Below, one piece after another: positions 53,489-55,948 of a stretch of DNA of 64,000 bases. The position numbers and the translations under genes are program-made. A model generated the notes under the pieces. The model was not told where the DNA came from. It made no database searches and worked only from the letters and a program-made list of their open reading frames with translations. How positions within the stretch are numbered: the first letter of the stretch is position 1; every line of letters begins with the position of its first letter. The stretch comes from Fundidesulfovibrio soli (GTDB lineage: Bacteria; Desulfobacterota; Desulfovibrionia; Desulfovibrionales; Desulfovibrionaceae), in the NCBI RefSeq assembly GCF_022808695.1, contig NZ_JAKZKW010000009.1, forward strand, positions 1 through 64,000, written 5' to 3'.

Positions 53489-53510
53489 CCCCACATAGCC
53501 CTATGTGGGG
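53489..53510. promoter_or_regulatory. Perfect palindrome upstream of the 53585 gene
   Basis: CCCCACATAG and CTATGTGGGG are perfect inverted arms with a 2-base gap. It lies between the terminator and the next gene, about 75 bp upstream of its start, so an operator is possible; no regulator is known. No T-run follows on the plus strand. Confidence 0.4.
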
Positions 53511-53584
53511 AGACAACGACCCCTTCTTGAATATGATGCGTCCCATTACCCGAAGCACCGGGATATCCACACAAAGGACGCACC

Positions 53585-54220
53585 ATGAGGACAGAAAAGG
53601 AATTCCAGGACAATCTGGCCGCCTACTGGCGACGGCTGAACGCCGCCTGCGGCGTACCGGCCGGAACCCACCCCGACGACCCTAACCCGGCAGGGACGCA
53701 AACCACGCCCCGAGCCACGACCCCGCCAGCCCGAGCGCAACGTTCGTCGTACCACGACCCTGGATTTGACGCGGTCTACGCCTCGCTCCTGAGCGACCCT
53801 GAAGCCCTGGCCATCCTCCAGGACCATTGGAACGACACCTTCGTCCCCAACGACCTAGGCCCCGCCCCTGCCGAATCCCATGCGCAACTGCGCTGGTACA
53901 CCCTGCGCGACCTGAACGACTTCCACCACAAACGCCACCTGGCCGACTTCAAGGACGCGCGGAAGCACCGCACGCGGCAACGGACAGAGAAACTCCTCGC
54001 CAGACTGAAGCGGCTCGATCCCCTTTTCGAAGGCACCAACGCCGTGATGCAGCACTACCTGGAACGCCTGCCCACATCGGCCAGGCGCGCTGCGCACGGA
54101 GTGTTCGAGCGTGACCCGCATGAGGTGCTTGAATTCTATCGGGAGATGCGCGCGGTCTCGGAAAACGCCGCGAAGGTCTACCACAAACGGCGCATCGCCC
54201 GGCGCCAGGGAGCGAACTGA
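53585..54220 (+). CDS. Hypothetical protein
   Basis: 211 aa, soluble, no recognised family. A helical N-terminus (EFQDNLAAYWRRLNAACGVP), a proline/threonine-rich stretch, then a charged helical C-terminal half with HHKRHLADFKDARKHRTRQ and LLARLKRLDPLFEGTNAVMQ. Strongly basic overall, so nucleic-acid contact is conceivable. AAAGGA ribosome-binding site. First gene of the accessory island; GC content is still high here. Confidence 0.6.
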   Translation: MRTEKEFQDNLAAYWRRLNAACGVPAGTHPDDPNPAGTQTTPRATTPPARAQRSSYHDPGFDAVYASLLSDPEALAILQDHWNDTFVPNDLGPAPAESHAQLRWYTLRDLNDFHHKRHLADFKDARKHRTRQRTEKLLARLKRLDPLFEGTNAVMQHYLERLPTSARRAAHGVFERDPHEVLEFYREMRAVSENAAKVYHKRRIARRQGAN

Positions 54221-54306: not shown

Positions 54307-54846
54307 ATGGAACCTTATGTCGATGGCCTTACTAACAGCTTCATCAACGCCCAGGACCAGACTGGCGATCACTTTGGAGACAACTTCAATGGGGGGACCC
54401 TGGTGGTGCCTGTAAGTGCTGACGGGAACAGCAACGAGGTACGCGTAAGGATTGACCAGCCCGGCATGAACGAGGTGAGAACGGTCATTGACCGGAATGC
54501 GACTCCTCAAGGGGCTGACAGGATGACAAATCAGATTCAGCACCAGGGTGATCAAAATCGACCCAATGCACAGCCTGTCGACAATCCTCCAGGCAATACA
54601 AACAGCGTCATGGGCGATTTGATCAAGAAAACAAAAGATAAGACCCTCGAAGGTCTTGGTGCGAAATGGGCTGCGGAAAGAGTGGGAGCCAGTCCACCCA
54701 GGGCGGGATGGATTGGGTTGGGTTCAGCCTTAGGGTCTACTTTGCTGGACCACTGGGATGAATTGCCAGGTGCTGCAGCAAACTTTCCTTCCCCCAAGTC
54801 ATTCCCCGGTGAATGTGACGGAATGACTTGCGACAGGATGGATTAG
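54307..54846 (+). CDS. Hypothetical protein with low-GC composition
   Basis: 179 aa with GGGAG seven bases before the ATG. Acidic, Asn/Gln-rich N-terminal half (NAQDQTGDHFGDNFNGG, then DRMTNQIQHQGDQNRPN), a helix KKTKDKTLEGLGAKWAAERV, a glycine-rich hydrophobic piece (AGWIGLGSALGSTLLDHW) and a cysteine-containing tail (GECDGMTCDRMD). No signal peptide or family recognised. Composition is more AT-rich than the flanking genome, consistent with acquired DNA. It converges with the small-ORF group beyond 55100. Confidence 0.6.
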   Translation: MEPYVDGLTNSFINAQDQTGDHFGDNFNGGTLVVPVSADGNSNEVRVRIDQPGMNEVRTVIDRNATPQGADRMTNQIQHQGDQNRPNAQPVDNPPGNTNSVMGDLIKKTKDKTLEGLGAKWAAERVGASPPRAGWIGLGSALGSTLLDHWDELPGAAANFPSPKSFPGECDGMTCDRMD

Positions 54847-55107
54847 TCTACTAGCAACCCAACATGCAACTGCATGAGCTGGCAGGACGCGCTAGGATTC
54901 CGCCAGTTCATGCAGTAGATAAGGCCCGAAACACGAACTACAAGGCATGCAGGCAATACGCTTGTTAGGGCCCATACCCATATCATGATCTAACAAATTT
55001 ACCACGGATAGCGCTGTATACACAACGAAACATTAGGCTCTATGTAAATATAATATACAAATAAATTCACGGCGACACACGACCAATACCTGCTTATGTC
55101 GTTTTTA
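54847..55107. other. AT-rich non-coding stretch
   Basis: Between the 54307 gene and the small-ORF operon. It holds the inverted repeat at 54869-54916, a second inverted repeat TTGTTAG/CTAACAA (54962-54968 and 54990-54996), and short frames without ribosome-binding sites. I see no credible gene. Confidence 0.5.
54869..54916. repeat. 15-bp inverted repeat with one mismatch
   Basis: ACTGCATGAGCTGGC at 54869-54883 and its near-complement GCCAGTTCATGCAGT at 54902-54916, with an 18-base loop. It starts 23 bp after the stop of the 54307 gene. No T-run on either side. It lies inside a stretch bounded by ACCCAAC and GTTAGGG, see findings. Confidence 0.6.
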
Positions 55108-55242
55108 CTAACCATTGAGCAGCCCCAGATATTTAATAACACAAACATCGAGCTTTCTTATTAACATGCCACCTAAAAATATAAAAACAAAATACACCCC
55201 ATATACCCACTTTTGCACAATATCTGACTTCAGAGTACTCAC
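55108..55242 (-). CDS. Micro-membrane protein 4 of the AT-rich island
   Basis: 44 aa, GTG start with GGGGAG four bases upstream. Begins MSTLKSDIVQKWVYGVYF and continues with one membrane helix (VYFVFIFLGGMLI) followed by RKLD, a positive inside-type boundary, and ends VIKYLGLLNG. Fourth of four tandem tiny frames on the minus strand, 15 bp after the third. Too short for standard gene calling. No homologue recognised. Confidence 0.55.
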   Translation of the reverse strand: MSTLKSDIVQKWVYGVYFVFIFLGGMLIRKLDVCVIKYLGLLNG

Positions 55243-55257
55243 GACACTCCCCTGCAC

Positions 55258-55389
55258 CTACTTGGCGAGTAAATATTGCAGACAGATTATAATCGCACCC
55301 GCAGTAACAATACTGCAGAGAATTATCATCACCTCAAAAGCTATGCGCTTCCACAGGGGCCATCCCGAACGATCAATTTCATCCTGCAT
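55258..55389 (-). CDS. Micro-membrane protein 3 of the AT-rich island
   Basis: 43 aa. N-terminus MQDEIDRSGWPLWKRIAFEV, then a membrane helix (VMIILCSIVTAGAIIICL) and QYLLAK at the end. GGAG six bases before the ATG; an in-frame ATG four codons upstream (55401) is an alternative. The GWPLWK motif before the helix matches GWPMWR in frame 1, which suggests common ancestry. The gap to frame 2 (55390-55572) holds short open pieces that may be remnants of a further member (NVLRNLIADACADIAWLS). Confidence 0.6.
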   Translation of the reverse strand: MQDEIDRSGWPLWKRIAFEVMIILCSIVTAGAIIICLQYLLAK

Positions 55390-55572
55390 CGCGCTCTCCA
55401 TGAATCTTTACGAAAGCCACGCAATATCTGCGCATGCATCTGCAATCAAGTTGCGTAAAACGTTGTAGCCCAAATCAAACTCCAAAAATCACACCAGACA
55501 AAAAATATCAGCGTAACCGCAAGACACTTCTATTGACATTGCCAAACACCACGACCATGATAGAGCGCTTCT

Positions 55573-55695
55573 TTAAGGCCGTATCAATTTAACAACAAAT
55601 AGAATTGGCCAAAACAACATGATAATGCCAACAAAATCACGCCACAAAGCTGCAGTTAACAATCGAAGTTCCTGATATGACAACTCAACTTCCAT
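55573..55695 (-). CDS. Micro-membrane protein 2 of the AT-rich island
   Basis: 40 aa. MEVELSYQELRLLTAALWRD followed by one membrane helix (FVGIIMLFWPILFVV) and KLIRP. AGGG lies five bases before the ATG, and the start is only 6 bp after the stop of frame 1, so the two are translated together. WRD before the helix echoes the W[RK] of frames 1 and 3. Confidence 0.6.
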   Translation of the reverse strand: MEVELSYQELRLLTAALWRDFVGIIMLFWPILFVVKLIRP

Positions 55696-55701
55696 TGCAC
55701 C

Positions 55702-55851
55702 CTACCAAAGGATGAAAATGAGCGAGAACACAGCCGCCGCTTTGAGAAGCAGATACAAAGCAACACGCCACATGGGCCAGCCGAACCAAAAATACCATCC
55801 TTCCGGAAGCGAATAAGCCCCAAAATACGATCCGTAGGGGATTCCTCTCAC
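55702..55851 (-). CDS. Micro-membrane protein 1 of the AT-rich island
   Basis: 49 aa. GTG start with GGAGG at six bases. The N-terminal half is aromatic and glycine-rich (GIPYGSYFGAYSLPEGWYFW), then FGWPMWRVALYLLLKAA and a membrane helix AVFSLIFILW that ends the protein. First of the four tandem frames and about 70 bp downstream of a promoter-like sequence. The overlapping longer frames on either strand have no ribosome-binding site and an unnatural composition. Confidence 0.62.
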   Translation of the reverse strand: MRGIPYGSYFGAYSLPEGWYFWFGWPMWRVALYLLLKAAAVFSLIFILW

Positions 55852-55919
55852 AGTACACCTCCAAGAGAGCGCGGAGAGGTTCCAACTCCGCTCGACAAAA
55901 CTTCATGCTAACTGAATAC

Positions 55920-55948
55920 ATGCTAATCTATTTTCAGAAACAGCTCAA
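55920..55948 (-). promoter_or_regulatory. Putative promoter of the micro-membrane operon
   Basis: On the minus strand TTGAGC, a 17-bp spacer and TAGCAT, in AT-rich DNA. The transcript would start about 55912, some 60 bases before the first small frame. No operator motif seen. Confidence 0.55.

Follow-up and report, generated by a model that had tools for sequence, protein, structure and literature searches.

Gene transfer agents (GTAs) are usually discussed as shuttles of DNA, and their benefit to the host is debated. A GTA review (PMC11841831) calls their role ambiguous. RcGTA, BaGTA and Desulfovibrio Dd1 are made up of domesticated tailed-phage genes that lie at several chromosomal loci and are common to the species of a genus, and the same holds for the gene set described here from Fundidesulfovibrio. 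The locus in question lies in a 64,000-nucleotide window of F. soli (contig NZ_JAKZKW010000009.1, positions 1 to 64,000), in which five microproteins, m1 to m5, are encoded on the minus strand opposite an effector-like gene, E, and its neighbor, X. With a rough probability of 0.6, these microproteins are immunity proteins of a polymorphic effector cassette within a scattered, domesticated SU10-like phage regulon of the genus. Unlike the described GTAs, this set has SU10-type head genes, one palindrome at its loci and about ten effector-like cassettes, most of them with micro-membrane open reading frames (micro-ORFs) on the opposite strand, and its particle, with any transfer of DNA, is a predicted one.

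Colicin genes have a convergent layout, and the known immunity proteins of pore-forming colicins and pyocins are one larger protein each, whereas the candidates here are several single-helix proteins of ~40 aa with no family match. Neither a colicin pore domain nor a colicin immunity family was matched in a Pfam scan of window E and m1 to m4. What is shared is the pairing of a putative effector with a candidate membrane immunity gene on the opposite strand: in pore-forming bacteriocins, described in part in PMC5358913, an induced effector faces a separately promoted, opposite-strand membrane immunity gene.

The MuF polymorphic toxins of temperate phages, as presented in PMC5576092, likewise combine phage-head-linked proteins, swappable toxin regions and small neighboring ORFs. 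In contrast, the effectors considered here lie mostly outside virion operons, several of them behind a scaffold-position paralogue, and the immunity candidates are convergent microproteins. No MuF domain (PF04233/PF06152) was found in the proteins scanned, namely window X and E, the E proteins at L089:2678 and L119:7190, and the X paralogue of locus L097. For cargo, the closest description is the engineered P22 system, in which, according to PMC9962691, a scaffold protein carries the cargo fused to it into the phage head; here X and E are separate genes, and loading is something that we infer. Among the matches listed in literature searches on GTAs, Fundidesulfovibrio and domesticated prophages, no title or abstract describes such a system, and the words “immunity” and “bacteriocin” are absent from the main text of PMC11841831.

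The features of the locus are listed by position; comparisons span seven genomes of the genus (G000 to G006), where G000 is the window's own genome and G001 that of a sister species.

53489-53510, no strand assigned: palindrome CCCCACATAGCCCTATGTGGGG, 22 bp, operator-like, overlapping the -35-like GAGACA (53510-53515).
53532-53537, plus strand: -10-like TATGAT, 16 bp after GAGACA; an alike element follows other palindromes (judged by eye).
53585-54220, plus strand: X, 211 aa, probable paralogue of the product of the gene that precedes the capsid gene, the scaffold position.
54307-54846, plus strand: E, 179 aa, effector-like, with a common N-terminus (...NFNGG), a variable Gly/Ala-rich core and a CDGxTCDRxD tail.
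54999-55115, minus strand: m5, 38 aa, MVSKNDISRYW..., overlapping the end of m4 by 8 bp; homologues beside E in loci L026 and L027.
55108-55242, minus strand: m4, 44 aa, with a single hydrophobic helix and LDxC toward its end; L026 and L027 carry homologues.
55258-55389, minus strand: m3, 43 aa, DRxxWPLxxRI and one hydrophobic helix; member of a family of seven ORFs.
55573-55695, minus strand: m2, 40 aa microprotein, 82% identical in the orthologous locus L021.
55702-55851, minus strand: m1, 49 aa microprotein, GTG start after GGAGG, 94% identical in L021.
55948-55943 / 55925-55920, minus strand: promoter-like TTGAGC-17-TAGCAT, from which the micro-ORFs would be transcribed; it is distinct from the palindrome promoter and points the other way.

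The initial annotation had described four minus-strand frames with gaps of 6, 183 and 15 bp, the motifs GWP[ML]W[RK] and LWRD, and the TTGAGC-17-TAGCAT element, and all of these were confirmed; both hexamers are unchanged in L021 of the sister species. All four frames exist, but a fifth, m5, had been overlooked. The proposal that they encode one-helix membrane microproteins holds as well, and these are real and conserved, with homologues in other species. Their reality is argued from this conservation: m1 and m2 recur in the sister locus, homologues of m3 to m5 lie side by side elsewhere, and a profile of m3 drew in no decoys. With that profile, seven of 4588 small ORFs (three of them seeds) reached an E-value of ≤0.01, as did none of the reversed or shuffled decoys, the best of which scored 0.013 in the first round and 0.37 later. 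The seven members, found in the window, L026, L027 (two), L096, L097 and L132, are without exception convergent to an X or E gene. Conservation with synonymous bias in related genomes, which the annotation had named as a check, was also found: homologues exist, and orthologous micro-ORFs pooled over 12 pairs and 509 codons have a dN/dS of 0.29, a value biased downward by keeping only pairs with ≥60% protein identity and drawn from a set in which two of the pairs overlap at a single locus, two have a partner in common and m2 is cut to 27 codons. As for the annotation's idea of one family of related mini-proteins, m1 and m3 may be homologous through GWPxW, a motif that the other m3 relatives retain only partly.

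That the micro-ORFs are chance open frames in AT-rich DNA is very improbable. From this window alone, chance is excluded only modestly: under the strict rule the window holds three minus-strand micro-ORFs with a transmembrane segment (two under the strictest of three settings), and dinucleotide shuffling reached the window's count in 30, 8 and 12 of 500 rounds under the three settings, the first figure being the point in favor of chance. The cross-species homologues, the pooled synonymous bias and an enrichment over 21 loci, described below, all speak against it.

Comparison with the sister species separates the micro-ORFs into two sets. In G001:C5, locus L021 has the same flanking neighbors as the window around X, E, m2 and m1, and m3, m4 and m5 were not found there. 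Homologues of these three are instead clustered opposite a convergent E gene at L026 (G001:C2) and L027 (G006:C49), two loci without DNA similarity to each other. The E gene is divided in a similar way. Residues 1-34 are identical in protein to the sister allele, with one of 102 bases differing; from residue 90 onward, BLASTP matches only the last 17 residues of window E to the sister allele, as compared with 48% identity over 90 residues in L027 and 46% over 54 in L026. In our reading, the E core was exchanged together with m3-m5 as one cassette, and m1-m2 stayed behind. On these sequence comparisons, m1-m2 are probably the older residents, which at this locus in the sister species stand next to another E allele. 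The single operon of the initial annotation thus gives way to two sets, m1-m2 and m3-m5, whose histories differ and which are divided at the 183-bp gap. Its AT-rich, foreign-looking island is indeed AT-rich (GC 43.7%, against 55-74% in the window's other 1-kb blocks), but a recently foreign origin was rejected because the sister species has X, E, m1 and m2 as well, with the same genes on either side.

A second locus appears to preserve a similar history. L089 (G000:C3) and L129 (G001:C23) are the same locus in two species, and L089 has, at a distal position, a second copy of the end of E together with a micro-ORF set. The distal set matches that of L129 better, at 70-94% over three ORFs, than does the proximal set of L089, in which one ORF is matched, at 72%. 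Such distal leftover sets have the look of orphan immunity genes in toxin systems.

The pairing of E with micro-ORFs recurs over the genus. Twenty-eight E genes were considered after exclusion of fragments, second copies of counted stretches and one spurious match; 21 membrane-type genes were counted, leaving out five that are enzyme-like and two with a convergent gene for a secreted-looking protein of 323-328 aa. In the 600 bases downstream of the 21, there are 31 convergent transmembrane micro-ORFs, compared with a shuffled mean of 5.0 (maximum 10 in 100 rounds), and three on the same strand, compared with a mean of 0.2. At least one convergent micro-ORF is present at 17 of these loci. Small partner genes are common to 12 locus pairs, nine of which also share E cores; the three exceptions, with differing E, are window/L021 and two capsid-locus pairs. 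The informative pairs that share both core and partner are window/L026, window/L027, L026/L027 and L095/L119.

The enzyme-like E genes are CHAP-like in L119 (L119:12995) and L095, and metallopeptidase-like in L126 (eCIS_core 2.3e-5, above the cut-off) and its relatives L092 and L130. They are followed by larger same-strand genes for membrane, lipoprotein or secreted-looking proteins; L092 and L130 have convergent micro-ORFs too, farther downstream. As a separate observation, the E-family protein encoded at L126:4573-5616 in G005 contains the eCIS core domain (HELHH), which takes its name from contractile injection systems, although G005 has no sheath match. In L092 (L092:1533-3228; see also L130), tandem paralogous lipoprotein-like genes stand behind the metallopeptidase-like E and are possible periplasmic immunity genes.

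Across loci, E proteins are alike at the N-terminus and vary in the core, and in L119 two E genes have one N-terminus and different C-terminal parts. A shared N-terminus with a swappable effector region, as in polymorphic toxins, is therefore found in this family, and a putative small partner gene is seen adjacent to it, as is also typical of such toxins. These features bear on an inverted scheme in which the microproteins are the toxic part, akin to type I toxin peptides, under the control of E or its transcript. Small hydrophobic type I toxins have a similar form, but E is the modular protein with shared N-termini, and enzyme-like E genes occupy the same place with larger membrane partners; the inverted scheme is accordingly quite unlikely.

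The second line of evidence is a promoter element. The palindrome CCCCAYATAGNSCTATGTGGG, with its -10-like element, lies upstream of X. With two mismatches allowed, the palindrome is present in six of the seven genomes of the genus, the window's own included, at 17 distinct sites in G000 (an extra palindrome with four mismatches, at L093:10686, is not counted), whereas a backward control of the search gave one match in total. The genes downstream were read site by site for the 17 sites of G000: five sites precede virion genes, ten precede X/E or E cassettes (one degenerate), one an X without clear E, and one an emptied locus. The emptied locus, L094:4286 (G000:C15), retains the palindrome promoter and has lost E; its sister copy at the same locus, L026, retains E and the m3-m5 homologues. 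The five virion sites stand before terminase-portal, a scaffold-like X' with the capsid gene (and E behind), the adaptor, genes of 499 and 373 aa, and a tail collar operon. Directly upstream of the terminase and the 499-aa gene, the palindrome is found in 6/6 genomes having these genes. As judged from the sequence, a single type of palindromic promoter thus stands before the terminase-portal, capsid, adaptor and tail genes as well as before about ten X/E or E cassettes, and it would switch virion and E genes together.

A phage-derived regulon raises the possibility that the micro-ORFs encode lysis or holin-like proteins that release particles. One-helix membrane microproteins adjoin phage-derived genes here, and no lysis cassette was recognized among the genes downstream of the genome's own palindromes, where no profile search for one was made. 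Such a role is nevertheless improbable, given that the micro-ORFs lie on the strand opposite to the palindrome's genes and that each genome has many variable sets whose families track the E core or locus history. Nor did m1-m4 have any Pfam match or m1-m5 a PHROGs match better than 0.19.

The virion genes themselves are recognizable and dispersed. Family matches were obtained for the SU10 capsid (2.1e-74), SU10 portal (1.7e-76), SU10 adaptor (1e-13), tail collar (1.5e-17) and terminase (1.4e-9); for the P22 portal family nothing in the genus rose above the cut-off, and the SU10 portal model was matched instead. The five virion-gene palindrome sites of G000 are spread over three contigs, and in G005 the capsid gene lies at C1:591k, the terminase gene at C1:723k and the 499-aa gene at C1:763k. 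Relatives of the terminase (75-97%), portal (66-95%) and 499-aa gene (64-91%) are each present in six of the seven genomes, with additional, more distant copies in G003 and G006. The capsid gene is present in five, being in pieces in G002 and G003, and was not found in G006, a genome that is 66% complete. G004 has no match for the palindrome, X, capsid, portal, terminase or 499-aa gene. Neighbors of the capsid locus are similar in three species, as judged by eye. Capsid relatives were absent from the viral contigs searched, and in phages 296 records were matched, all at <60% identity. With respect to the viriform criteria quoted in PMC9662315, structural and packaging proteins of a tailed phage are encoded, and the genes are endogenized at multiple loci. 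The same criteria also name inheritance that is largely vertical with the host, and particles that carry and deliver host DNA of mainly random origin.

Extra C-terminal capsid fragments outside the capsid operon occur at G000:C4:53797-53973 and G001:C3:78307-78462, as if cassette insertion had duplicated the capsid end. In G003, locus L171 (G003:C1:3000-22900) resembles an SU10-type prophage: the terminase, portal, scaffold-position and capsid genes follow one another in that order, with no palindrome. It is likely related to the ancestor from which the scattered gene set arose.

L171 also bears on the nature of X. The gene between portal and capsid is the usual scaffold position, and the L171 gene at this place is similar to X' (1e-8) and to the X of L089 (2.9e-5), with no significant match to window X (0.061); these are phmmer E-values from very small sets. 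Whole-genome searches with window X found a gene on C3 (3.7e-6) and X' before the capsid gene (9.8e-5). Because X' and the X of L089 match the middle gene of L171, and window X matches X', X is read as a scaffold-gene paralogue. Its predicted structure is all-helical, at low confidence (pLDDT 62). At class level X occurs in 5 of 297 genomes, all within the genus; G006 has an X homologue and is presumably outside this sample.

E, which is convergent with m1-m5, is similarly restricted, with relatives at family level in 5 of 288 genomes at an E-value of ≤0.01. One of the five, in G243 outside the genus (0.0047), has an internal stop and was taken as chance. No relatives of E were found in phages, and among viral contigs 14 stretches fit a pattern and none encodes an E relative. 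A Pfam scan of X, E and m1-m4 gave no match, a PHROGs scan of X, E and m1-m5 gave nothing better than 0.066, and searches for RNA families and tRNAs in the window found none.

Several observations weigh against an immunity role for the microproteins. By the rule used, 4 of the 21 membrane-type loci lack a convergent micro-ORF, and of the 31 locus pairs whose E cores are similar, 22 have no detectable small partner in common. Four of the nine that share both core and partner are less telling because they are the same locus in two sister species. Taken singly, m1 and m2 are weakly constrained (dN/dS ~0.5 each). A more sensitive search aligns E residues 116-179 to the sister allele at 42%, and the E cores may therefore be distantly related. 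The CHAP matches are below Pfam cut-offs, and the window E core is weakly hydrophobic (best 19-residue mean 0.53). The best PHROGs match of E, although insignificant at 0.066, is to an internal virion protein, which favors a different assignment: E proteins as ejection channels for DNA entry, with the micro-ORFs, as superinfection exclusion proteins or antisense regulators, preventing re-entry into producer cells. The Gly/Ala-rich cores, the palindrome shared with virion genes and the opposite-strand micro-ORFs would suit that assignment. It is nonetheless unlikely, since it is at odds with the number of divergent E genes (about ten in each genome), with their swapped cores and with the existence of enzyme-like E genes, and the prophage-like L171 has no homologue of window E (best E-value 0.58). 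Among the functions guessed by the initial annotation, immunity is the best supported, although the decisive partners, E, X and the palindrome, lie beyond the stretch that it covered.

Toxicity, immunity, particle loading and delivery are steps that we infer. When the regulon is switched on, X and E would be produced, and X, as a scaffold paralogue, may bring E into the particle or merely be co-produced with it. Released E would reach a sister cell and act there on the inner membrane. The microproteins m1-m5, made from their own opposite-strand promoter, would sit in the inner membrane and block E, with m1-m2 perhaps serving as leftover immunity against the allele of the sister species. In its fullest form, this would be a kin-discrimination weapon in which X paralogues load the head with interchangeable E proteins, which the particle injects into sister cells. 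Allele-specific protection would come from sets of ~40-aa, opposite-strand single-helix proteins, kept as orphan immunity after swaps; so complete a scheme is offered only tentatively. Release of E by lysis without particle delivery is possible.

Delivery by other machinery was considered. VipB/TssC had no match in G000 and G001 and was matched in G002-G006; the tail sheath PF04984 had no match in G000, G001, G004 and G005 and was matched in G002, G003 and G006. With neither TssC nor sheath matched in G000 and G001, delivery of E as type VI or contractile-tail cargo is disfavored for these two genomes. G000 and G001, the two genomes without a TssC match, both retain the phage-derived regulon.

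If the immunity reading of the microproteins is true, a GTA-like regulon co-controls about ten swappable effector-immunity cassettes, which would provide a selective reason to keep the particles, through competition between relatives. It would also point to a natural means of bringing protein cargo inside phage heads and would explain AT-rich islands rich in micro-ORFs that fall below the usual cut-offs of gene finders. The reading is testable in cultured sulfate reducers.
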